The translations under genes and the position numbers were made by a program. DNA of 28,214 nt, taken from positions 1-28,214 of IMG/VR virus record IMGVR_UViG_3300030098_001731. One strand, written 5' to 3'. The stretch comes from a virus. The first letter of the stretch is position 1. Each line of letters starts with the position of its first letter. The notes beneath the pieces were generated by a model. That model was not told the DNA's origin. It did not search any database and saw only the letters and a list, made by a program, of their open reading frames with translations. Shown piece by piece: positions 3,244-25,900 of the stretch.

Positions 3244-4944
3244 TTAATTTAATACAGATATATCTGCAGGTTTAAGCCAGTTACGTTTAATCATTAAACC
3301 TACTACATAACTTGGAGTGTCAATTAACGTAGCTCTATATAGTCTACCTAACCAACTACGTCTTGTTCCTTTCATTTCAGCCACAATATCATCAGTACGT
3401 TTATTAGCTATATGCGAAAGAACTTTAGCAATTACTTTATTAGAAGGCATCATAGATACTAGTTTGCAATAAAGTTTATGGTAGCCTAATTGGTGTTCTG
3501 GTGTAAGATAACGGTTTGAATAAAGTAGCCATTGTTTAGAACGATAGTTTCCTAAACCATACATACGGTTCATCATTGTACATATTATTTTACCATACCC
3601 CGGATCAGCATGACCTGCTTGGTCATCTCCTGTTGGGTGAGGATCAGTTTCTAAAGCTGGATTATACGGATCAGGTGATAAAGTGTCACTTCCTGCTCCT
3701 CCTTTTACCACTCTATGTCCTCTTCTATCTTCCCTTGCTTGTCTAGCGTCATACGCTTCTTGTCCTTTTGTAGTTGGAGTAAACCCGAATAATGATAAAC
3801 CATGTCTTTGTGGGTTTTGAGGATCATATTCTGCTAAAATATTACCATGTATATCTACTGCTACTACTCCTTTGTCTGTTTGAGCAAAACCATGTACAGA
3901 CGATACAGTAGTAGTACCAAGAGCAGCACCACCGGGATTCCAGTAATCATCTGAAACTATAGCGGTAGCTCCTATTTGACCTTGCCCTTCAGAAAGCATA
4001 ATGTCTAAAACAGGTTTCATCATAAATCCAGATATGGGATTTGATTTAAAAAGAAAAGCATTTAAAAACGAACCTGTAATTCCTTTCGCTATCGGCTCTA
4101 CTAAAGTAGAAGGTTCTCTAAAACCTTTTTCAATAGAATCCATAACTCTTGATGGAATATTTGCTATATCATATCCTAATTCTTTTGCTTTATATTCTAC
4201 GTAAGATGAAAAGTCAGCCCTATCTTTTGCAACATCTTTAAAGGAAATTGATGGACCAATAGCTTCTTGTTTGTCATACGCTTGTTGCATTTTTTCATTA
4301 AATGCTGCTATATCAGGAGAAAACCCTAATGCTTCAAGTTGTGTTGGATCACCTTTTTCATAAGCATCGTAAGCTTCTGCCATTCTATCTTGTATTTTAG
4401 ATTCATATTGATCTAAAGTATCGTAAGATCGTACCATACTATCGCCAACTGCTACATTAACACTTTGCATACCTCTTACAGAATCGTCTTGTAACCCTCC
4501 GTCATCCTGTAAATCAAAAGCTTCCTGTAGTTGTCTTCCTACGTTCTGTGCAGATGTTGTAGCAGTAGTAGTCGTAGGCGTAGTTGTAGGCGTAGTAGTC
4601 AATGCTGTTGTAGGCGTTTCAGGAGCTAAAGGTTTAGTAAAGAACTGTGACGCACCAGCAGGTAACTTGCCTGATTGTGTAGCTGTTCTATAGAACGTAC
4701 TAGCAGGTATATTCTTTGGTACTTCTGGTAAACCTTCTCCCGGTTTTAAAGCTATACCTTCACCAATTCTATTAAACACATCATTCCAAGATAATTGATT
4801 ACTTTGTTGTGGAGCTATAGGTGTAACTGTACCGGGTTTAATAGAGGTAGCTGTACCTGAAAGCATATCTTCAATGTTACTGGCAGACAAAGCTGATCCT
4901 GTTCCTTCTAATGCGGATTCAAGTTGTTCTGCCAATGTTGCCAT
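3244..4944 (-). CDS. Probable virion-associated protein with conserved C-terminal domain
   Basis: 566 aa, not assignable to a named family by eye. The N-terminal 110 residues look disordered, followed by a Thr/Pro/Ala low-complexity linker at about 108-132. The middle (about 135-300) is charged and helical. The C-terminal approximately 115 residues form a compact domain starting at GKIICTMMNRMYGLG, with Cys, Trp and aromatic residues and a hydrophobic end. This type of Cys-containing tail recurs in phage tail or internal virion proteins, but I cannot name it. SD AAGGG precedes ATG at 4944. It follows the portal gene by about 30 nt, consistent with a connector, tail or ejection protein. Confidence 0.5.
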   Translation of the reverse strand: MATLAEQLESALEGTGSALSASNIEDMLSGTATSIKPGTVTPIAPQQSNQLSWNDVFNRIGEGIALKPGEGLPEVPKNIPASTFYRTATQSGKLPAGASQFFTKPLAPETPTTALTTTPTTTPTTTTATTSAQNVGRQLQEAFDLQDDGGLQDDSVRGMQSVNVAVGDSMVRSYDTLDQYESKIQDRMAEAYDAYEKGDPTQLEALGFSPDIAAFNEKMQQAYDKQEAIGPSISFKDVAKDRADFSSYVEYKAKELGYDIANIPSRVMDSIEKGFREPSTLVEPIAKGITGSFLNAFLFKSNPISGFMMKPVLDIMLSEGQGQIGATAIVSDDYWNPGGAALGTTTVSSVHGFAQTDKGVVAVDIHGNILAEYDPQNPQRHGLSLFGFTPTTKGQEAYDARQAREDRRGHRVVKGGAGSDTLSPDPYNPALETDPHPTGDDQAGHADPGYGKIICTMMNRMYGLGNYRSKQWLLYSNRYLTPEHQLGYHKLYCKLVSMMPSNKVIAKVLSHIANKRTDDIVAEMKGTRRSWLGRLYRATLIDTPSYVVGLMIKRNWLKPADISVLN

Positions 4945-4977
4945 TATCTACCCTTTTTATGTACTTTTACTGTATCG

Positions 4978-7104
4978 TTAACCGACTTCTTGAGGCATAC
5001 CAAGGTTTCCAGTAAAACCAGCTTCCCCTGCAGTCGGCGCATTTCCGACTCCGATTCCTCCACCACCAGCCGTTGCCTGTGGCGCACCACCAACTCCTTG
5101 AGGTATTCCTCCAGCACCTCCCATGCTTGCTGGTTGTTGACCAGCGGCAGGAGCAGCTTCGCCTGTTGTTCGTTCATTTAATCCTCTCAATACTTCTGCA
5201 AAAATTGCTGCATCACTAATATCGTTAACCAACGCATCAGGATCAATATCCTGACTTATAGCTAACTCACGTATCAGATTAGGTATCTTTATAAATGGAG
5301 CCAGCATCGGATTGGACACAGTTTGAAGAAGTGCAGTAAGTCTTTGTGTGCGTACTTCTTTCTGTACTACCGCGCTAGTTCCTTTTGGTTTAATTTCAAG
5401 ATCGCCAATCTTTTCTGGTGTTTCATCGTTAAATTGCATATTCCATTGAAAGAACGCTTCGCCTACTGGCTTGAGTAGGAAATCATCTATATTTTTTATT
5501 ACAGTCTTTACACTTAGTCCTGCACTGGACATAAGCATACTTAAACCTGCTGCAGTTCTACCAGTACCAGTTACACCTGTTTGCCCATGCATAATACTAG
5601 GTATACCTGTTTGTTCGTCTGATAGTTGTCGTGCTTTGTCGTACATTTGTATGTTTTCACCAGCCGTACTAGGAAACTTGATAGCGTTAACTGCAGTACC
5701 CGTTACGCCAGATTGCCTACGAAAGACTTTACCGGGATACACATCATAAGATTGACCGGGAACTAGTTGTGTTTCGTCAATGTCAAATACGAGATGTCCT
5801 GCTAAAGCTAGGTTATCAATAGCCATTCGCATATGTCCATTCATCAACAGTTGGCTATCTTCCATATTTTCTGCTACACCAACACCAAATAACTGGTACG
5901 GATTTAGTTCGTATGGAAAAGAATGGTACGGAATACGTGAAGGAATAAAAGGATTAACTACAAACCGTAGTATCTCTTGCCCACATATCCAAACGTTTAC
6001 TTGAATCGAATCAAGATCGCCTTCAATTCCTTCCATGTCAAATCCAAAGTCTTCAGCCAAAGCACTGTCAAGACTACCCCAATACTCGTACACTTCGTAG
6101 CGATTAGACGAGTACGTTGGATCATCTTCATTAGCATGAAGTGAAGCTTCAAAATAACGCTCATGGTAGTTTGGACCGCCAGACAATACATTGCCAATAG
6201 CTTCTTCATCAAAGTGAGGACGATTAACAAGATCACGTATCTGTTCCCTGTTCATTCTATGACGTTGTATAACGTATTCAGCGTCACCAATATTAGTAGC
6301 ACTAGGATCAGGATAGAAGTCCCAACAACTTACTGCTTCTATCCTTGGTACATTGCGTTCCATAGGTTCGTAGGTTTTTTCACCTTCTTCATCCATAGAC
6401 CAGTTATGTATGGTTTTGTTGTAGTTAAACGGTCCTTTTATAACACCAGTACCTAATAGCGCACACTCAAAAATAGCATGACGTAATACTGTAACAGCAC
6501 TAGTATCAAGAAGTTGATCCTGTATACATTTCTCCATTATCCTTGCAGCTTCTGCTGCAGGAGATATCTGTGGCTCACCCATACGTGCAGGACCAGAAGC
6601 TAAATTAGCTCCCTCGTACATACCTTCAAGACCGCCTAGTTCTGCTGGTTCAGGTTTAGCGGTAGCTTCCATAGCTCCCGGTAACAGTTCCTTACCATCT
6701 CCTTCAAAACCAAACGGATCGTCTGGCATATCTTCTTCCTCTATAGGTATCTTACTTAAGTGAGCAAACTCATCAATACCTGTCGGCATAGGAGTAGACT
6801 CAACAGAAATAGGAAACTTATTATTAGCAAATAAGATATCTACTATCTGACCATAAGCAGCTAGAACTTTAGTTTTAGTTATCTTAATAAAGACCTGACT
6901 ACGTTCATTACTACGGTATTGTGTGCTGGAATCGTACACACCCCTATAGTTCTTGTACGCTTTAAGCCATCGTTCTTCTTCTAGCTGTCTTCCTGATTCA
7001 GCGTTACGAAAACGCTCCATGATAGTCCCTATAATGCCTGTAGCTTCTCTAGCTTCAGGCACATCTCTCATTTCTTCGCCTTCGTATTCGATATCATCTG
7101 CCAT
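4978..7104 (-). CDS. Portal protein
   Basis: 708 aa, in the size range of large podovirus-type portals. The N-terminal region has GIIGTIMERFRNAE followed by a helical segment with Trp/Tyr (about 40-60). The central part has FGVGVAENMEDSQ and MRMAIDNLALAGHLVF, and the core helix region has IPSIMHGQTG and a Thr/Gly/Ala-rich helix before IKNIDDFLLKPVGEAFF. These match the stem and clip regions of portals in T7- and P22-like phages. It forms the dodecameric DNA channel and docks the terminase. The last 55 residues are Gly/Pro/Ala-rich and probably disordered. It lies in the expected cluster with terminase and scaffold. Confidence 0.8.
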   Translation of the reverse strand: MADDIEYEGEEMRDVPEAREATGIIGTIMERFRNAESGRQLEEERWLKAYKNYRGVYDSSTQYRSNERSQVFIKITKTKVLAAYGQIVDILFANNKFPISVESTPMPTGIDEFAHLSKIPIEEEDMPDDPFGFEGDGKELLPGAMEATAKPEPAELGGLEGMYEGANLASGPARMGEPQISPAAEAARIMEKCIQDQLLDTSAVTVLRHAIFECALLGTGVIKGPFNYNKTIHNWSMDEEGEKTYEPMERNVPRIEAVSCWDFYPDPSATNIGDAEYVIQRHRMNREQIRDLVNRPHFDEEAIGNVLSGGPNYHERYFEASLHANEDDPTYSSNRYEVYEYWGSLDSALAEDFGFDMEGIEGDLDSIQVNVWICGQEILRFVVNPFIPSRIPYHSFPYELNPYQLFGVGVAENMEDSQLLMNGHMRMAIDNLALAGHLVFDIDETQLVPGQSYDVYPGKVFRRQSGVTGTAVNAIKFPSTAGENIQMYDKARQLSDEQTGIPSIMHGQTGVTGTGRTAAGLSMLMSSAGLSVKTVIKNIDDFLLKPVGEAFFQWNMQFNDETPEKIGDLEIKPKGTSAVVQKEVRTQRLTALLQTVSNPMLAPFIKIPNLIRELAISQDIDPDALVNDISDAAIFAEVLRGLNERTTGEAAPAAGQQPASMGGAGGIPQGVGGAPQATAGGGGIGVGNAPTAGEAGFTGNLGMPQEVG

Positions 7105-7110
7105 AACGAT

Positions 7111-7338
7111 TTAGATTCCTTGGTTGGATGAAGCCATAATCATAGATGCTTGACCCATGTGCTTGTTACCAGATTCTGAAGGAAAGTCCTCAGTAAGAAC
7201 GCCTTGCTTTGTTCCTACACCAAACTCCATCTTTTCACGGTAAAGGTTCGACTCTTTAGCGTCAGACATTTCGCCCTGCTTGCTCATCTGACCCATGATG
7301 TACCCTGAACCGTACATATGTTTGTTACCTGCTGGCAT
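7111..7338 (-). CDS. Small Met/Gly-rich protein upstream of portal
   Basis: 75 aa, not recognised. A strong SD (AAGGAG about 7 nt before ATG at 7338) supports it as a real gene, and it ends 6 nt before the portal start. The sequence carries an internal imperfect duplication: GNKHMYGSGYIMG near the N-terminus and GNKHMGQASMIM near the C-terminus. It has no membrane segment. Small proteins of this size beside the portal are often head-completion or connector factors, but nothing in the sequence shows this directly. Confidence 0.6.
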   Translation of the reverse strand: MPAGNKHMYGSGYIMGQMSKQGEMSDAKESNLYREKMEFGVGTKQGVLTEDFPSESGNKHMGQASMIMASSNQGI

Positions 7339-7365
7339 GATATTCTCCTTTTTCTTTTGGTTAAG

Positions 7366-9804
7366 TTATCTTAATGCAGACCCAGTATCAGGACCGGGCC
7401 TTATAGTTATACGTAATCCTTCGCCTTCTTCGTCTTCATCTGAAATATTAGAACGTTTTAATGCAAAACCTTCAAATCCTTCAGCATCTTCAGCAGCGTA
7501 ATCTTGTAACGCTGATTCATATGTTTTAAGTCTTTGTTGTGCTTTTCTTTGACCAGCTTTAGCCATACCCCGTACACCTTTTCTCTCAGCTTGCGCTCTA
7601 GCACCTTCTGCTCTAGTACGTGCTTCTGTTGCAGCTAATTCTGAAAATTGTTTCATATCAGGAGTTATGCTATCTGATTCCATCATTTGTAATAATTCTT
7701 CTTGTCCTAAACTACTAGGGTCATCTTGTATTACAGGTCCAAGAGCAGTGGGTGTTGTAGCTACATCTAAAAGAATATCAGCAGCTTTTAATGGAGCAGC
7801 TACAGCAGCAGTTACGCCTGTTGTTATAGCTCCTACAACTTGTTGTGTCGTAGGTTTAAATTTCTGCATCCTAGAAAGAACTGAATCCATTCTTGATTTA
7901 GCAGATGACGTTATATCTTCTATTGATCTAGATGCTACGTCCGTATCAAAGTCAGACATCCATGAGAATAAAGGTTTTTTCTTTATTCCTAACATATTTT
8001 CTAAAGCTTGTTTTTCTACTCTTTGTTTTTTAGTTAAATCTTCAGACTTTATGAGATTTAATGTTTGAAGATTATTAAGAGCTTTTTCTTTAACTTCTAT
8101 TTCATTTATTTCTTCTTTAAGTTGTAGACCGTATCTTTCATCTACAGGACGTTTAGCTGCAATCTTTCTTGCAGCCCATAATTTTTGTTCAGTTTTAAGA
8201 TTTTCTTTTTCAATTTTTAATGATTCTTGTATGAATTTTTGTTGAGCTAATTGTGAACGAGCAATCTCTTCTTTAGTTTTTTGTGAAGCTAATCTTTTTT
8301 CTCCTCGCGTCATAGGTCGTTTTTGATTTGTAAAATCAGGATTCGACTCTTCTGGAACAGCTAAAGCATTAGCCTCGTTAATCAAATTAGTTTCACTATC
8401 CCATAATTCAGGAATATCCACGTTAAAACCACCAGCTATTTGATTTATATGTGTGTATCCTAATGCTCTAGCAAAGTCATTTCCTATAGATAAAAGCACA
8501 CGTTGAGTAGCATCATCTCCTTGTCCTACAACTTTACCTATGTAACTTTCTTCATCTACTGCGGTCATACTTCCTATAGCACTTGGTTTACGCCCCATTG
8601 CAATACTAACTTCGCCTCTTTCATTTATAGGAAATCTTGCTGCAGCATACGTTGCAACAATCTTCCGCATATCAGAAGCACCTTCAAATGGTCTTCCCAT
8701 CAAAGTTTCATATTTTTTGAGTTTTTCAGCTAAACCTCCTCCACCTTTTTTTGGATCACCTAGTAAAAAAGCTGTAAGTCTAGATACAGGTTGTTTAATT
8801 TTATCTGGATTAAAGATAGGCGTACCTGTGTAAGACCATCCTCCACCTCCTTTACCTGATACTGTTAACTTATTATCAGGATTTTTAGTATCATATCTTT
8901 TATCTTTTAAACTACCGTCAGGATTAAAAACAATAGATCGTACTAAATTTAAAGTTAAAGGATTAAGAGTTTGTGCTGCTCTAATTTTATTATGACGTAT
9001 TTGCTCTGGAACATAGCCTGTAGTAAAATCTATATCTTCTATAAATAAGTCAGCTATTTCACCTATTCGCATTATAGAATTTCTAGAAAATAATAAAGCT
9101 TTTTTTGCAAGTTGTGCGTTAGGATTTATTTTTTGAGGGTCTATATCGTTAAGAGCATCTTTAAATATCTTATCAAAGTCAGGTTGAGGAGGAAGTTTAT
9201 TTATCGGATTTGCTTTTCTTGGTTGGTAAGCTAAAGCATTTGTACCATCGTCAGCACCATATGCTCTTGCTATACCAGCATCTCCAGAAACTCTCGTTCT
9301 ATGAACATTTACAATTTGACCGGGAGAAGTGATTCCAAAAGGGTATTGTTTAAGATTTTCAAAAGATGGGTCTAAATCTCTAAGAGCTTTTTCAGTATTT
9401 ATTTTATTTCTGTCGTAAAATGAACTAACATTATTTTCAACATTTTCTAAAATAGTATTCATAAAATTTAAATTGTTAAAATACGCAGGTCTTGATACAA
9501 CATTTCCTTTTTTATCAGTTTTAGTTACTGTTTTTAAAACTTTTTGAGGATTTACAACTTCTGGAGTAGCAAATTCAACCCATTTAACTTTACTTAAATC
9601 TGGCTCTTTAGCTCCTTTTTGATTACCTATAATACCATTTAAAACTAATTTTTTAAAACTTACTTTTGCTTCTTGTGATTTATCTATAACAGAGTCATTT
9701 TCTGAAGCATATATCTCAGCAGCCTTTAGATATTCCTCTATAGAAATAGTTTCATCGGATATCTTTTTCATTAAATCTATTTTTAATTCAGACGAATATT
9801 CCAT
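7366..9804 (-). CDS. Large virion-module protein with embedded tyrosine-recombinase-like domain
   Basis: 812 aa. Residues about 230-425 read like the catalytic domain of a tyrosine recombinase: MRIGEIADLFIEDIDF (R246 aligns with the first catalytic Arg), then HNKIRAAQTLNPLT (possible Lys and the beta-strand end), SDMRKIVATYAAA (R380 in the HxxR box, His replaced by Ser), GRKPS where the LGH box is expected (His replaced by Arg) and Y421 in DEESY. Both His positions are substituted and Y421 is about 41 residues from R380, longer than the roughly 30 usual, so activity is doubtful. The remainder is helical and charged: about 520-620 looks coiled-coil, a hydrophobic Ala/Thr/Val segment lies near 670-700, and the C-terminus is acidic. 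It sits between terminase and portal, an unusual place for an integrase. SD for ATG 9804 is weak. Confidence 0.7.
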   Translation of the reverse strand: MEYSSELKIDLMKKISDETISIEEYLKAAEIYASENDSVIDKSQEAKVSFKKLVLNGIIGNQKGAKEPDLSKVKWVEFATPEVVNPQKVLKTVTKTDKKGNVVSRPAYFNNLNFMNTILENVENNVSSFYDRNKINTEKALRDLDPSFENLKQYPFGITSPGQIVNVHRTRVSGDAGIARAYGADDGTNALAYQPRKANPINKLPPQPDFDKIFKDALNDIDPQKINPNAQLAKKALLFSRNSIMRIGEIADLFIEDIDFTTGYVPEQIRHNKIRAAQTLNPLTLNLVRSIVFNPDGSLKDKRYDTKNPDNKLTVSGKGGGGWSYTGTPIFNPDKIKQPVSRLTAFLLGDPKKGGGGLAEKLKKYETLMGRPFEGASDMRKIVATYAAARFPINERGEVSIAMGRKPSAIGSMTAVDEESYIGKVVGQGDDATQRVLLSIGNDFARALGYTHINQIAGGFNVDIPELWDSETNLINEANALAVPEESNPDFTNQKRPMTRGEKRLASQKTKEEIARSQLAQQKFIQESLKIEKENLKTEQKLWAARKIAAKRPVDERYGLQLKEEINEIEVKEKALNNLQTLNLIKSEDLTKKQRVEKQALENMLGIKKKPLFSWMSDFDTDVASRSIEDITSSAKSRMDSVLSRMQKFKPTTQQVVGAITTGVTAAVAAPLKAADILLDVATTPTALGPVIQDDPSSLGQEELLQMMESDSITPDMKQFSELAATEARTRAEGARAQAERKGVRGMAKAGQRKAQQRLKTYESALQDYAAEDAEGFEGFALKRSNISDEDEEGEGLRITIRPGPDTGSALR

Positions 9805-9806
9805 GT

Positions 9807-11480
9807 TTAATATCCAAATATCTGATTAACAGGAGCGTAAGTCTGCTCCTTAACTCTGTTCATCATACCAGCGTGTGGTAATCCAGTTTGTCTAGTCATA
9901 CACATATACCTTAATGCATCGTAGGCGTGGTCTTCGGCCTTGGTATCCACGTCCTCAGAATTCGTCTTAGACAGTGGTAGAGTTGGAAGAGTACGCACAA
10001 GATTAGTGCAAGTACTAAAGATGCGTAATCGTGGTTCAGCAGTTTTCTCATTCATCATCAGTCTACGGTGTAGTTCTATCTTACCCGACATACGGTTCTT
10101 ATCTGCTGGAATGAACCGTACGCCATTACGTGTTAGTGTTTCAGCTATGCTTGGTCCTGTACCATGTTTTGACCAACAAGCACCATCCAGTACAGATATA
10201 CTCATTGGTGGATCAAACTCTTCTAAAGCTGTTATCATTTCAGCTAGGGTTTCCCCGGTGTATCCCTTGTTATATAGTTCTCTGTATATCCAGAAGTTAT
10301 TATCCCAGTCTACTGCACCCCAAAGGACGCAGCTAGGGCTACTGTAACCATAGTCAGCAGCACGTACTCTAGGCCAGTTGTAAGGTACTTCAAACGGCTC
10401 AACAACGTGGACTGATCTATCAAATTCTGAAAATGCTGCACCATCTGCGACATCCCAATCACCTTCCAGTAACCTTCGGCGTTCTACTTCTGGCAGAGAC
10501 AGAAGCATAGCTTCGTATTCGCCTGACTCCGCAAGGTGAGGATTGTCCGTTAGTCTGGCTGGAATAAATCTTCTTTGAAATAATGGTTCTCCCGGTCTGT
10601 GTGGGTGGTTAATACTGTGCATTAAAGTCTTGCCAGTATCAACATCTGTAGCCCAAAATGGGTCATTAGGTGGTGCAGGATCAATAAACATCTTTTTAAT
10701 CCACCAACCCCCACCACCACCGGGGTTAGCTGAAGCCCTCATATACGTATCTATTGTTGTGTCGGTTGTACGTAGTCGGCTTCGTAAGTAGTTCCAGACG
10801 TATGGTGTAGGATAATGGCCTAGCTCATCTATTCCTATCCATGTAAACGCCTGTCCTTGGTAGCGTGTTACGTCAGTATCCTTGTCTACGTAGCTGAATA
10901 AGGCTGTTGCTCCGCTAGGAAATGACCATGTACTCTTTGATTCTCTGAATACTGAACCGGGAAATGCTTGAGGGTATATCTTTCTAGATTGGTCAATCAG
11001 TTCTGTCAGTTCAGCTAGAGTACGTCTTAGTAGAAGTGCGCGGTGGTTGCCGTTATGTGCGTAGCGTAACAAGTCCATTAACATTGCAAATGACTTACCG
11101 CCACCTGCTGCACCGCCATATAGCACTTCCTTTTCTGGAGCAGCTAAGAAGTCCGTTTGTGGGCCGTTATTAGGATTAAATAAAATTTGTGTGTTATCGT
11201 CTAATCTTGCCCTCACACTTTTCGGTAGCTTCTTAACATTCTCCTCGACAGCCAACCCTCCGCTTCTTATTAGCTTTTCGGCGTGTTTGATATTGGCTGA
11301 CTTGTCTTTTAAAGTATCTAGTTTCCTTTTTGCTTGTGCTTCTGCGTTCTTGAGTACTTTTATTCGCTTACGTGTAACACGTTTCTTTCGTTCTAAATGA
11401 GATAAATGGTAGTTTCCTTTTTCACCTTCTTTTAACTTTGGTCTACCACCTTTATTCTTTTTAGGTGTGTCGTCTGTCAT
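9807..11480 (-). CDS. terL: Terminase large subunit (ATPase and nuclease)
   Basis: 557 aa. Walker A is GGAAGGGKS (K129-S130), Walker B is WIGIDELGH (D218-E219), and the coupling motif is in MRASANPGG (about 246-254). The RNase H-like nuclease has acidic residues at D375 (RAADYGYSS), D431 (VLDGACW) and D516/D520 (DHAYDALRY). The first 75 residues are a highly basic helical extension with an AT-hook-like GGRPK at 11-15, which may help DNA binding. It drives DNA translocation into the prohead through the portal and cuts the concatemer. It overlaps the upstream 94-aa gene by 4 nt (ATGA) and ends 3 nt before the recombinase-like gene, so all three are probably co-translated. Confidence 0.95.
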   Translation of the reverse strand: MTDDTPKKNKGGRPKLKEGEKGNYHLSHLERKKRVTRKRIKVLKNAEAQAKRKLDTLKDKSANIKHAEKLIRSGGLAVEENVKKLPKSVRARLDDNTQILFNPNNGPQTDFLAAPEKEVLYGGAAGGGKSFAMLMDLLRYAHNGNHRALLLRRTLAELTELIDQSRKIYPQAFPGSVFRESKSTWSFPSGATALFSYVDKDTDVTRYQGQAFTWIGIDELGHYPTPYVWNYLRSRLRTTDTTIDTYMRASANPGGGGGWWIKKMFIDPAPPNDPFWATDVDTGKTLMHSINHPHRPGEPLFQRRFIPARLTDNPHLAESGEYEAMLLSLPEVERRRLLEGDWDVADGAAFSEFDRSVHVVEPFEVPYNWPRVRAADYGYSSPSCVLWGAVDWDNNFWIYRELYNKGYTGETLAEMITALEEFDPPMSISVLDGACWSKHGTGPSIAETLTRNGVRFIPADKNRMSGKIELHRRLMMNEKTAEPRLRIFSTCTNLVRTLPTLPLSKTNSEDVDTKAEDHAYDALRYMCMTRQTGLPHAGMMNRVKEQTYAPVNQIFGY

Positions 11481-11761
11481 TCTTTATATTTAGCTTTTCT
11501 AGGCTGTATCATTTTAGCGTCTTCTGCTGCTACAAAAGAACCTTTACCATATAATTTTTTTAATTTTGTTTCATACTTTTTTTGCCTTTCTTCAAGCATT
11601 TTTTTAGTAGTAGGAGTTTTCAATACCCTGACAGGATCATTTTTCAACTGTTTAATTCTTTTTTCCAGTGTTGCCTTATCATCAGGATCAACAGTTCTTT
11701 TAAATTCAGAAAATGTTTTTCCTTCTCCAAATTCTTCATAAAGTTCTCTCATACTAGACAT
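11477..11761 (-). CDS. Small basic protein upstream of terminase large subunit
   Basis: 94 aa, not recognised. Rich in Lys and Glu, predicted helical; about residues 30-70 could form a short coiled coil. The start at 11761 has GAGGAG about 6 nt upstream and the stop overlaps the terL start by 4 nt, so expression is coupled to the terminase. Position suggests a packaging-module accessory, but no domain is visible. Confidence 0.6.
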   Translation of the reverse strand: MSSMRELYEEFGEGKTFSEFKRTVDPDDKATLEKRIKQLKNDPVRVLKTPTTKKMLEERQKKYETKLKKLYGKGSFVAAEDAKMIQPRKAKYKE

Positions 11762-12093: not shown

Positions 12094-12489
12094 TTATGAC
12101 TTTTCCCTTGAAGACTTAGCTACACGCCCACCGTAAGCATATTTCTTTTTAACTGAACCGCCACTCTTTCTTCCTAATCTTGAAGGGGTATTGAACGATT
12201 TTGCTCTACCGGCCTTTGAACCATAGTCTGCTAAAAGTTCTACGTCTTTTACATGCCCTTTTAATCTTTGAGAAGCAGGTCGTACTTTTGAACGAGTAAT
12301 TATATTAACTCCACCTTCTTTTTGATACTTACGAGCAAGTCTTTTAAGTTCCTTTTCAGTTTTTTGATATTCTCTACCAACACTTTCCATAAGTGATGCT
12401 ATTGTTTTTGGATTACTGTCTTTTTTATAAATAGTATTTGCTAGTTTTTTTATTACTCTTTGTGGTACTTTTATATCTTTATTAGCCAT
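12094..12489 (-). CDS. Basic phage protein with GGSVKKKYAYGGRVA tail (paralogue 1)
   Basis: 131 aa, strongly basic and helical, not recognised. Residues about 95-103 read SFNTPSRLG. The protein ends with SGGSVKKKYAYGGRVA followed by a short charged tail. The same 16-residue segment ends the neighbouring 183-aa gene, encoded by a 45-bp exact repeat. Gly/Lys/Tyr-rich tails of this kind are common in uncharacterised marine phage proteins. GAGG lies about 9 nt before the ATG at 12489. It lies between the terminase subunits, so a role in packaging or in virion DNA binding is possible but unproven. Confidence 0.6.
   Translation of the reverse strand: MANKDIKVPQRVIKKLANTIYKKDSNPKTIASLMESVGREYQKTEKELKRLARKYQKEGGVNIITRSKVRPASQRLKGHVKDVELLADYGSKAGRAKSFNTPSRLGRKSGGSVKKKYAYGGRVAKSSREKS
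12119..12163. repeat. 45-bp exact direct repeat, copy 1
   Basis: Starts gctacacgcccaccgtaagc and is identical over 45 bp to 12517-12561. It encodes, on the minus strand, the GGSVKKKYAYGGRVA tail of the 131-aa protein. Identity stops abruptly on both sides although the flanking protein regions show only weak similarity. Confidence 0.95.
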
Positions 12490-12500
12490 CTATCACTACC

Positions 12501-13052
12501 TCACTTCTTATACCTTGCTACACGCCCACCGTAAGCATATTTCTTTTTAACTGAACCGCCAGATGCTTTTCTATTACGTTGCATTGTTTCGTAATCAGTT
12601 TGAGCAGAAGGACCACTTTTTGTATTTTTTAATATCTCTGCTCTAATTTCAGAGTCAGACATATCTTCTCTTGTCGTTCCTTTACGAGAAGGAGTCATAA
12701 AACTTCTATATTCTCCAGCATCTTTTTTAGCCCTATCTACTATTCTTCTATCACTTTTATACTGTTCTCTAGCTGTTTCTGTTCTTGAGGATAATGCGTT
12801 TAACGCTTCTTTTGCTTCTTTTCTAATTTTAGCTCTAGCTGCTTTTACTTCTTTACGAGCTTTATCTTTTAAATAAGAAGTATTTTCTCCCCTATCTTTA
12901 GCCGCTATTAATTTTTTAGCGTAAATTCCAGCAGCTTTTTTAAGTTTATCTTTCTCATCTTGTTTGATACGTTTTCTAGCTCTAACTACCGCACCAGTTT
13001 CCATCCCTCTTTCATTAGCAACTTGTCTTTTATAATATGCTGAACTAGCCAT
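12501..13052 (-). CDS. Basic phage protein with GGSVKKKYAYGGRVA tail (paralogue 2)
   Basis: 183 aa, extremely Lys/Arg/Ala/Glu-rich and probably a long helical bundle or coiled coil over residues 20-110. It shares with the downstream 131-aa protein the motif SFxTPSRxG (about 118-126 here) and the identical tail SGGSVKKKYAYGGRVA. The translation-start contexts also match (TAGTGATAG before ATG GC in both). The two genes are therefore likely diverged tandem duplicates, with the tail either recently converted or strongly constrained. GGAG lies upstream of ATG 13052. The start overlaps the end of the terminase small-subunit gene by 8 nt. Function unknown; strong positive charge suggests nucleic acid or membrane contact. 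Confidence 0.6.
   Translation of the reverse strand: MASSAYYKRQVANERGMETGAVVRARKRIKQDEKDKLKKAAGIYAKKLIAAKDRGENTSYLKDKARKEVKAARAKIRKEAKEALNALSSRTETAREQYKSDRRIVDRAKKDAGEYRSFMTPSRKGTTREDMSDSEIRAEILKNTKSGPSAQTDYETMQRNRKASGGSVKKKYAYGGRVARYKK
12517..12561. repeat. 45-bp exact direct repeat, copy 2
   Basis: Identical over 45 bp to 12119-12163, 398 bp away in the same orientation; encodes the shared C-terminal tail of the 183-aa protein. Confidence 0.95.
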
Positions 13053-17173: not shown

Positions 17174-17230
17174 CCTCGCTTTGTCAACGCTAGTCTAGGG
17201 GAAACACCGAGAAAAACCTAAACTTTATGG

Positions 17231-17293
17231 CTGACAAAATTGTTGTTGACAAAATTGTTGACAAAATTGTTGACAAAATTGTTGACAAAATTA
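17231..17293. repeat. TTGACAAAATTG array, 12-bp unit, five copies
   Basis: Copies start at 17231 (CTGACAAAATTG), then after 15 bp a perfect head-to-tail run at 17246, 17258, 17270 and 17282, the last ending in TTA. The core ACAAAATTGT has ACA/TGT dyad ends. The run lies only 3 bp after the stop of the GP88-like gene. Each copy contains a perfect -35 hexamer TTGACA on the plus strand but no spaced -10 box. Confidence 0.9.
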
Positions 17294-17296
17294 TTC

Positions 17297-17920
17297 TCAG
17301 TATTTCTTAACCTTCTCAACGATAGTAGGCGTGGTATCATGCTTATAACATAATAAGCAATCTTTGCACTTCTGCCCTGTACAATTCTGCAACGGTACAG
17401 CCTCATCAACTAGCACGTTGTTAAACGTCTTATCAAAATATTCAGGTATCTTATGCTTTGGTAAGATATTACTAATTTTAGGATTAGAGTATATCAAGAT
17501 AAGATTAGATGGTTTAGCTCTATAAGAGAATAACCGTTCTATATAATCCTTACGCTTAGTCCATAGAGAGAATGTACAGTGTGGATTGTGTTCTGCAATA
17601 TCTGTAAGGTTAGCTAGGTGTTGAATATTAATTAATTCACCGTGTGCGCTAAAACGAAAGAAGCTATCCATTATAAATGGTAATTCTTCTTTAGTTAAAG
17701 ACCTAGAACTTAATAGATCGCTATTACGTTGTAAGGCATTAGCCATATTTTTTCTAAAACCATTTAACATAATATGGCTATAACAAACTTTACAGATTGT
17801 TTTCTTATTGGCTTTATTCATCTTAATACAGAACTTGTTAGTAAGAGTGTTAGTGCTAATAGCTCTAAAGCCTTCTAGCTTTCCTGTCATGGTGCTAATG
17901 TGTACACTGTTAGCTTGCAT
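17297..17920 (-). CDS. GP88-like phage protein with cysteine clusters
   Basis: 207 aa. The N-terminal part (GFRAISTNTLTNKFC...ICKVCYSH, about 20-50) and the overall layout match the phage Gene product 88 family: an early CxxCY, a central region with SLWTKRKDYIERLF and a C-terminal CTGQKCKDCLLCY (about 180-192). The two Cys groups could bind a metal or Fe-S cluster. The family is common in phage genomes and has no established activity. AGGAG lies 8 nt before ATG 17920. The upstream 54-aa gene overlaps it by 11 nt and begins with the same codons (MQAN). The gene ends just before a 12-bp repeat array. Confidence 0.75.
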   Translation of the reverse strand: MQANSVHISTMTGKLEGFRAISTNTLTNKFCIKMNKANKKTICKVCYSHIMLNGFRKNMANALQRNSDLLSSRSLTKEELPFIMDSFFRFSAHGELINIQHLANLTDIAEHNPHCTFSLWTKRKDYIERLFSYRAKPSNLILIYSNPKISNILPKHKIPEYFDKTFNNVLVDEAVPLQNCTGQKCKDCLLCYKHDTTPTIVEKVKKY

Positions 17921-19070: not shown

Positions 19071-19088
19071 AATATCTCCGTTTCTAGG

Positions 19089-19156
19089 TTGACAAAATTG
19101 TTTAATAGGTTGACAAAATTGTTTAATAGGTTGACAAAAAAGACTTGACAAAATTA
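19089..19156. repeat. TTGACAAAATTG array, 21-bp spacing, four copies
   Basis: Copies start at 19089, 19110, 19131 (ending AAAAG) and 19145 (ending TTA): periods 21, 21 and 14 bp. The 21-bp unit ggTTGACAAAATTGtttaata repeats exactly twice. Same core and orientation as the 17.2 kb array. It fills the gap between the nuclease gene stop (19158) and the SD of the 102-aa gene. Confidence 0.9.
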
Positions 19157-19157
19157 T

Positions 19158-19724
19158 CTATATTCTATAACCAGATAAGTCATCTTTACTGTTATCTGGA
19201 TACATTTCTGGTATTTTATTATTGACAAATTTTAAATTAAGACACAATAAATTAATATCCCTTAGTTCATTTTGTTCCATTACAAACACTTTACCATGTC
19301 CTAGATCACCTATCCTATCCTTATTAATTAAATCTTCTTTTTTAGCCCAACCTCTAATGACAACTTTAGGATAGTGTTGAGCAGTAACCAAGACAAAAGT
19401 ATTTATATCACCGTAATCAGTTTTATAAAAAGCTATTAGCTTACCTTTACCGTAAAAGGTAGTCTTAACATCTATCTTTTTATCATCATGTGTTATTAAA
19501 TCAGCACCACCCTTACGTACAAATATAGAAAGATCAGGATACACATTAAGATGCTTTGCAACTGCTAACTCACCAGCTATACCTAACTTCTCTATATCCA
19601 TAGGATTACGTTTTGAAACTTTAGCGTTAGGTAATCCAGCTTTACGATTAGAATTGTAACGCATTTTTCCCCCAGTAGAACATAACTTCTGTTCTAGTTC
19701 TGTAAGAGTATATTCAACAGACAT
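19158..19724 (-). CDS. PD-(D/E)XK superfamily nuclease-like protein
   Basis: 188 aa. The core fits a restriction-endonuclease fold: GIAGELAVAKHL (E52 on the first helix), GGADLI (D75) and IDVKTTF (D85-x-K87), then the strand-helix region with FVLVTAQ and VVIRGWAKKED. This E-D-DxK set is the metal-binding site of the family, seen in Holliday junction resolvases and repair or restriction nucleases. The first 45 residues are basic and may bind DNA. It overlaps a 34-aa gene by 11 nt. Only a weak SD precedes ATG 19724, so translation is probably coupled. Which DNA substrate it cuts is unknown. Confidence 0.7.
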   Translation of the reverse strand: MSVEYTLTELEQKLCSTGGKMRYNSNRKAGLPNAKVSKRNPMDIEKLGIAGELAVAKHLNVYPDLSIFVRKGGADLITHDDKKIDVKTTFYGKGKLIAFYKTDYGDINTFVLVTAQHYPKVVIRGWAKKEDLINKDRIGDLGHGKVFVMEQNELRDINLLCLNLKFVNNKIPEMYPDNSKDDLSGYRI

Positions 19725-20364: not shown

Positions 20365-20862
20365 TCATTTAACATCATTATATTCCCATCTATAGAATAT
20401 ATGATCCTCTATTTCTACTGTTCTAGTCTTGGTATACGCCCAAGACGGTGTAATATAGTCAGCGTGATAGTGTGTAGCACCATCAGTAATATCAAGATAC
20501 GGCATATTTTGGTATAACATATCCTCTGCCATACCATATATAGCGTCATAAGTCTCTATATCGCTAGGTTCATCCGACTTACCATCACAATACCAACTGA
20601 ATTGACACCTGTTACGTACTGGTATAAATTTATTTTTATCCTTCCATGATGGTCTTGTTGGTCCTTCATGGACTACTTCACAAATAGTATCTGGATACCT
20701 GTCATCTGCTACACGGTTCATTACTACGTTACTTACAGCTAACATCCCTGCTAGGCTCTGGTTCCTTGCTTCAAAATACATATTATCTGCAAGGCACGTA
20801 ACCTCATCATGTGTTACACCCATTAGCATCCCTACTAGAAGTAATTCTTTACCTATCATCAT
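20365..20862 (-). CDS. SleB-type cell wall hydrolase
   Basis: 165 aa. LADNMYFEARNQSLAGMLAV and the following NVVMNRV (about 24-49) are the hydrolase_2 / SleB signature, with E31 as the expected catalytic Glu. CQFSWYCDG and GATHYHADYITPSWA are the other conserved blocks (about 86-94 and 128-142). The family hydrolyses peptidoglycan, usually as a lytic transglycosylase. Residues 5-16 are hydrophobic but short, giving a possible weak export or signal-anchor segment. It overlaps the upstream 129-aa gene by 4 nt, in the same operon as the EF-hand membrane protein. With the lysozyme at 1768-2262 it makes two unrelated wall hydrolases in this phage. Confidence 0.85.
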   Translation of the reverse strand: MMIGKELLLVGMLMGVTHDEVTCLADNMYFEARNQSLAGMLAVSNVVMNRVADDRYPDTICEVVHEGPTRPSWKDKNKFIPVRNRCQFSWYCDGKSDEPSDIETYDAIYGMAEDMLYQNMPYLDITDGATHYHADYITPSWAYTKTRTVEIEDHIFYRWEYNDVK

Positions 20863-25771: not shown

Positions 25772-25900
25772 TGACGTAATAGTGCGTCAAATAGAGAGAG
25801 AGTTTTGAGGAGCGGCCTTGAAACTCTCTCTTACTTTTAAATAGTAGGGGAAGTTACATAGTAGGTAACTTAATGATAGCAGAGGGATGGTAGCTATCAT
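25772..25900 (+). other. Intergenic run of four consecutive hairpins, including a terminator
   Basis: Four inverted repeats follow one another: TGACG/CGTCA (25772-25789); GAGAGAGTTT/AAACTCTCTC (25796-25830), 10 bp, followed by TTACTTTTAAA, the likely intrinsic terminator or attenuator; AAGTTAC/GTAACTT (25851-25871), 7 bp; ATGATAGC/GCTATCAT (25873-25900), 8 bp. The last two lie within 55 nt of the exonuclease ATG and could regulate its translation or be processing sites. Confidence 0.7.

Follow-up and report, generated by a model that had tools for sequence, protein, structure and literature searches.

In podophages of a clade related to HMO-2011, the position between the genes for the large terminase subunit (TerL) and the portal protein constitutes a slot that is filled in nearly every genome and is hypervariable, a feature newly reported here; no description of the terL-portal slot was found in the open-licence literature, which is weak evidence of absence. 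The gene in this slot almost certainly encodes a genuine, very divergent tyrosine recombinase, and it is exchanged as a whole open reading frame (ORF) between otherwise near-identical phages. The stretch of DNA analysed (the window) is 28,214 nucleotides long and represents bases 1-28214 of a 49,103-bp IMG/VR record; its source is a marine podophage related to HMO-2011 and HTVC033P, with a portal protein ~50-53% identical to the portals of HTVC033P and HMO-2011.

Gene neighbourhood and identity of the slot protein

The slot gene of the window occupies 7366..9804, the coordinates given by the initial annotation, but on the minus strand, and from its ATG start encodes a protein of 812 aa for which profile, fold, and alignment all point to a tyrosine recombinase with a C-terminal extension. 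The order of genes on the minus strand is a TerS-like ORF, small ORFs, terL (9807..11480; PHROG_979, E 1.5e-59), the slot gene, a 75-aa ORF (7111..7338) that is found at the same place in relatives and is conserved beside the slot, the portal gene (4978..7104; PHROG_332, E 6e-74), and structural genes. The slot gene starts 2 bases past the terL stop, is followed by a gap of ~27 bases, and shares its strand with terL, portal, and the structural genes that follow. Between the TerS-like gene and terL, two small ORFs (12094-13052) have a common C-terminal SGGSVKKKYAYGGRVA peptide, the DNA of which forms a 50-nt repeat at 12114-12163 and 12512-12561 (96%). Elsewhere in the window are tandem TTGTTGACAAAA (12 bp) and TTGACAAAATTGTT repeats that resemble promoter -35 sequences (17228-17302 and 19085-19166), a cell wall hydrolase gene (Hydrolase_2, PF07486) outside the structural block (20365-20862), and a 16-bp inverted repeat with a 5-nt spacer, a candidate terminator or binding site, between the genes for a ssDNA-binding protein and a PDDEXK-like nuclease (25795-25831). 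L082 encodes, at 4333-11531, two very large proteins (1397 and 996 aa) that belong to no clear family and may be ejection proteins.

Taken alone, the window protein gives a marginal match to Pfam Phage_integrase (residues 227-276, E=0.011). A leave-one-out family profile, made from 43 relatives with the window protein excluded, matches it over residues 202-470 with 95.2 bits (E 2.3e-27 when all ORFs of the fetched loci are searched); of 2000 shuffled versions of the window protein, the highest-scoring reached 11.1 bits against this profile. Other slot proteins match Phage_integrase with E values down to 4.3e-17 and PHROG integrase families down to 2.4e-26. When a profile of the catalytic segment was compared with the PDB, the matches were archaeal XerC-like 4a8e (5.9e-6), IntI4, XerH, XerA, and XerD; two designed TIM-barrel chains in the same list matched over a 32-residue stretch only and were taken as chance. 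A tblastn search of 50,697 phage records with the window protein and three relatives gave no match, no cultured phage with the gene was found, and viral contigs scanned directly with the window protein yielded no relative; the slot relatives were recovered through the neighbouring portal and terminase.

The catalytic domain (residues 200-470; 8395..9207, this and all further slot-gene features being on the minus strand) was modelled with a pLDDT of 83.8 and a pTM of 0.84. The domain model aligns with S. aureus integrase 3nkh (Z 12.8), XerA 4a8e (12.6), XerH (11.8), the lambda Int core (11.0), an SSV-type integrase (9.6), Cre (~9), and XerD (8.7), and the 50 matches listed, with a best Z of 12.8, are all tyrosine recombinases or type IB topoisomerases. 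In Foldseek, the best match of this model had an E value of 0.01, which is not significant, and the top matches listed were all recombinases. The full-length model aligns with XerA, XerH, Tn1549 Int, lambda Int, and Cre from residue 7-20 onward (Z 9-12), and because the match extends that far, an N-terminal core-binding (DNA-clamp) domain is present at approximately residues 1-200 (9205..9804), a domain that the first reading of the sequence had overlooked. Profile, alignment, and predicted fold thus uphold the tyrosine-recombinase assignment of the initial annotation, and the predicted structure by which it was to be checked has the recombinase fold. The accompanying idea, that a domain of this kind had been recruited into a virion protein, was right as to a recombinase in a packaging and structural operon, but what is found is a whole recombinase, with core-binding and catalytic domains spanning residues ~1-470, rather than a small domain.

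Catalytic residues and the C-terminal extension

Catalytic residues were counted in 72 slot proteins, the window's own included, one row of phiM6-type cargo being excluded. In a leave-one-out alignment, R246, K273, R380, R405, and Y421 of the window protein fall at the Arg-I, Lys, Arg-II, GH, and Tyr positions of the family, respectively. The Arg-I codon (9067..9069) encodes R in 70/72 proteins and Arg-II (8665..8667) is R in all 72, the Lys of the beta hairpin (8986..8988), not remarked on previously, is K in 56/72, and the nucleophile tyrosine (8542..8544) is Y in 70/72; model confidence is low in the segment around Y421. The boxes MRIGEIADLFIEDIDF, SDMRKIVATYAAA, and DEESY that had first suggested a recombinase are present in the window protein, with R246, R380, and Y421 correctly numbered and, in the comparison then proposed, conserved among relatives. 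DEESY had been described as terminal, but Y421 lies mid-protein and is followed by ~390 residues.

Both catalytic His positions are replaced in the window copy, as had been observed. S377 (8674..8676) occupies the position of the HxxR histidine of box II, a feature of tyrosine recombinases that is His in 0/72 slot proteins (K 22, S 14, Q 9, G 8, and others), and R405 (8590..8592) that of the second His/Trp, where H is found in 53/72 and R in 15/72, the window's own among them. The HxxR position varies in known tyrosine recombinases too, so that another residue there is compatible with membership. Residues 405 and 421 of the window protein are 16 residues apart, and the equivalent spacing is usually 9 residues in lambda Int, XerD, and Cre.

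Of nine slot-gene pairs compared over the whole gene, seven have a dN/dS below 1, one is saturated, and one exceeds 1 with very few changes; for the catalytic segment the ratio is 0.08-0.50 in the seven computable close pairs, and the C-terminal part is mostly faster-evolving. With Arg-I, Arg-II, and Tyr kept in 70, 72, and 70 of the 72 proteins, most members of the slot family are, judging from sequence, probably active enzymes. The inactive DNA clamp that the initial annotation had considered is therefore unlikely for the family at large, since these three residues are near-universal in 72 divergent relatives and dN/dS is mostly below 1. A narrower version, in which the window's copy acts as a DNA clamp devoid of catalysis, is highly improbable. 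It would account for S377 and R405 at both His positions, and it fits the lack of a close relative of the window allele in the collections searched, but R246, K273, R380, and Y421 are all kept, the Arg at 405 recurs in other slot proteins, and no member of the family has the HxxR His, a loss that the window copy therefore shares with all of them.

Beyond the catalytic domain the protein extends for a further ~320 aa. This region includes a charged linker predicted to form long helices (~residues 500-605; 7990..8307; 40% charged residues) and a conserved C-terminal domain (residues 650-764; 7513..7857) that contains an A/G-rich, mildly hydrophobic segment, as defined by profile, alignment, and hydropathy. 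A profile of the C-terminal domain matches most slot ORFs (some loci being represented twice in the set) and no other ORF of the fetched loci; compared with the PDB by profile it has no recognised relative, and its fold is predicted with low confidence. Near the C-terminus, EGFEGFALK (7456..7482) is the counterpart, by motif comparison, of the EEYQGF end in other slot proteins. The pattern [YFSV]xG[FY] is found within the last 60 residues of 28/83 slot proteins, in some not at the very end, and such terminal motifs depend on the clade, others ending in QMxxL. C-terminal tags common to other virion proteins were considered and rejected, the slot motifs being essentially slot-specific. A 191-aa protein of G000 has a QGF-like end, which may be chance.

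Occupancy and exchange of the slot

Occupancy was counted over the IMG/VR relatives in which the end of TerL and the start of portal lie in one locus, and in all but one of these the slot holds a large ORF of 530-1034 aa. In the exception, L051, TerL is followed directly by the next small ORF and there is no slot gene, so the gene is not essential there; the right flank of L051 is 86-95% identical to those of gene-bearing relatives, with a far greater divergence in TerL. Among cultured relatives, the slot position is empty in HMO-2011, holds small ORFs in HTVC033P and HTVC115P, and holds a GDSL hydrolase in phiM6; L167 has unrelated cargo in the form of a 339-aa ORF. The latter ends in a tail similar to SGGSVKKKYAYGGRVA.

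Between the window and L090/L091, the DNA is ~98% identical across terL as far as the ATG, the slot ORF itself gives no match at the DNA level, and similarity resumes (88-91%) at the stop codon or ~13 bases beyond. Near-identical relatives that differ exactly from start to stop codon indicate that the gene behaves like an interchangeable module. Among 64 genomes, slot proteins are <30% identical in 58/98 pairs with TerL identity of at least 95%, and in pairs with TerL identity of at least 98%, median identity is 97.6% for portal, which tracks TerL, and 25% for the slot; the lowest slot identities, of a few per cent, derive from free-end-gap alignments and mean 'not alignable' only. The same slot alleles recur in independent samples, and assembly chimeras were rejected on this ground as the source of the variability. 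Besides the slot, the near-identical G010 and G016 (L173-L176) differ at two further places, the small ORFs of the TerS-TerL interval and the N-terminus of a structural protein encoded downstream (666-aa ORF, L176:8981). As a search for a partner that covaries with the slot, this comparison was set aside: over ~11 kb these two places and the slot are the only differences, which is too little to name one.

Precise replacement of the ORF amid homogenised flanks, a gene-free allele (L051), and the unrelated cargo that phiM6 and L167 carry in this position are what would be expected of a selfish or competitive gene, each allele attacking or converting the slot region or another locus of coinfecting relatives in the manner of a free-standing homing endonuclease and spreading by recombination in its flanks. 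We consider this quite improbable, in that no target site was found and the proteins in the slot are nearly always of one kind and share a conserved C-terminal domain, which argues for a function of the phage itself.

Life cycle, proposed role, and known systems

Phages of the HMO-2011 type are among the most abundant in marine viromes; a canonical tyrosine integrase, encoded upstream of the replication module, is present in their subgroups I-III, and subgroups IV-X are reported to lack identifiable lysogeny genes (PMC9038755). One of the related CRP phages, CRP-3, integrates into a tRNA-Met gene (PMC6918029). In the present collection, Pfam detected no second tyrosine recombinase in 26 records, many of them fragments, with a model that misses most slot enzymes (its cut-off is passed in 1/26 records). 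The family profile gave one clear match, in the slot, in each of six records, that of G006 being weaker at 4.5e-7, and no second enzyme was found in G000 (49.1 kb, probably an incomplete genome) or in the circular G001 and G002.

The slot protein may be a standard integrase of lysogeny, relocated to the late operon and inserting the phage into the host chromosome, with alleles that differ in the attachment site they use. Some family members match PHROG integrase (2.4e-26) and Pfam Phage_integrase (4.3e-17), and related subgroups have a canonical integrase where the records checked have the slot enzyme only. Exchange of integrases is also common in temperate phages. Against this, the gaps of 2 and ~27 bases leave no room for an attP adjoining the gene, neither tRNA genes nor fragments of them were found in the window or in six relatives, no repressor family was matched among ~20 G000 proteins scanned against Pfam or PHROGs, and the integrases described in the literature for HMO-2011-type phages are encoded upstream of the replication module. 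An attachment site in the form of a tRNA fragment was rejected, the slot gene itself having been included in the search; an att site may lie within the slot ORF or match a non-tRNA locus. Among the DNA repeats, many of them weak, none could be tied to the slot as a cognate site. A portal scan of 84,980 genomes, in which the host is poorly sampled, returned no prophage and only a 4.1-kb phage contig in a metagenome-assembled genome (MAG). That contig is the HMO-2011-like L167, in a Winogradskyella MAG, and is probably contamination. Overall, we hold the lysogeny integrase to be a serious if tentative candidate, nearly as likely as a late virion-coupled role, with a resolvase or a competition gene less so.

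A late resolvase of multimers or concatemers, Cre- or Xer-like and acting in replication or packaging rather than in the virion, appears unlikely. XerA, XerH, and XerD are among the closest solved structures, the slot adjoins terL, and the tyrosine recombinase of phiCbK has such a proposed role (PMC3556154), but one would not expect a housekeeping enzyme to be much more variable than both of its neighbours, to carry a 320-aa extension, or to be missing in one relative (L051). In addition, record end points differ among genomes, which is consistent with circular permutation, and a single resolution site would therefore not define the ends. The large size of the protein and the K at the HxxR position in 22 relatives had also raised the idea of a hairpin telomere resolvase (protelomerase); this is disfavoured by the varying end points and by G001 and G002, which close into circles via 99-bp end overlaps.

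The reading we prefer, although as a whole it falls somewhat short of an even chance, is a slot recombinase that is made late and is coupled to the virion or to packaging. Given its position in the terL/portal operon, the slot gene would be co-expressed late with terminase and portal, and its C-terminal part may tether the recombinase to the packaging or virion apparatus. The enzyme could then be carried in the virion and enter a new cell along with the DNA, where Y421 would mediate site-specific strand exchange on the incoming phage genome, such that the genome is circularised, resolved, or placed in the host chromosome. Alleles of differing DNA specificity would be swapped by homologous recombination in the conserved flanks. 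Points in favour of this reading are the late position, the near-constant occupancy of the slot, the ORF-precise exchange, the recurrence of alleles, the lack of a second tyrosine recombinase in G000, G001, and G002, and a C-terminal domain confined to slot proteins in the fetched loci; weighing against it are the absence of any recognised relative of that domain and its low-confidence fold, the failure to find a cognate DNA site, the L051 genome without the gene, and, in the window protein, the Arg at the second His position and the poorly modelled Tyr segment. The more specific proposal, of a virion-delivered, ORF-swappable site-specific recombinase of which the population keeps many specificities exchanged as whole genes, is advanced only tentatively. 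Ejected proteins of DNA ends that are proposed to aid circularisation are known, an example being 80alpha gp44, encoded beside portal (PMC7290940). A divergent recombinase in the packaging operon would escape standard annotation, as the Pfam cut-off passed in a single record illustrates, and should the slot enzyme be at work in these phages, current views of how they live, circularise their genomes, and exchange genes would have to be reconsidered. With its ORF-precise allelic diversity, the slot also offers a clean system in nature in which to ask how recombinase specificity is selected.

Among known systems, the Xer recombinases (XerA 4a8e/5hxy, XerH 5jk0, XerD 1a0p) give the best profile and structure matches and share the core-binding and catalytic fold and the Arg-Lys-Arg-Tyr residues; they are, however, ~300 aa, host-encoded, and conserved, whereas slot proteins are hypervariable, span 530-1034 aa, extend further at the C-terminus, and lack the HxxR His. 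The tyrosine integrases of HMO-2011 and CRP phages (PHROG_1, PHROG_216) belong to the same superfamily and to related phages, but their genes lie upstream of the replication module, and that of the slot enzyme belongs to the packaging operon and has no att site next to it; tblastn found no link between the two. Like the slot protein, phiCbK gp143 is a tyrosine recombinase, in a phage without reported temperate behaviour (PMC3556154), but at 208 aa it is nearly a catalytic core only and is encoded outside the packaging operon. The suicidal integrases of the SSV type resemble the slot protein in catalytic fold (Z 9.6), and a target site located within the gene, as they have, might in principle account for the lack of an att site outside the slot ORF; they are reported only in archaea (PMC8371274), and the slot gene contains no tRNA fragment. 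Finally, gp44 of Staphylococcus phage 80alpha, a non-specific end binder for which no recombinase fold is claimed and which is likened here by description, not sequence, resembles the slot protein in its place beside portal, and it is ejected and proposed to promote genome circularisation (PMC7290940).
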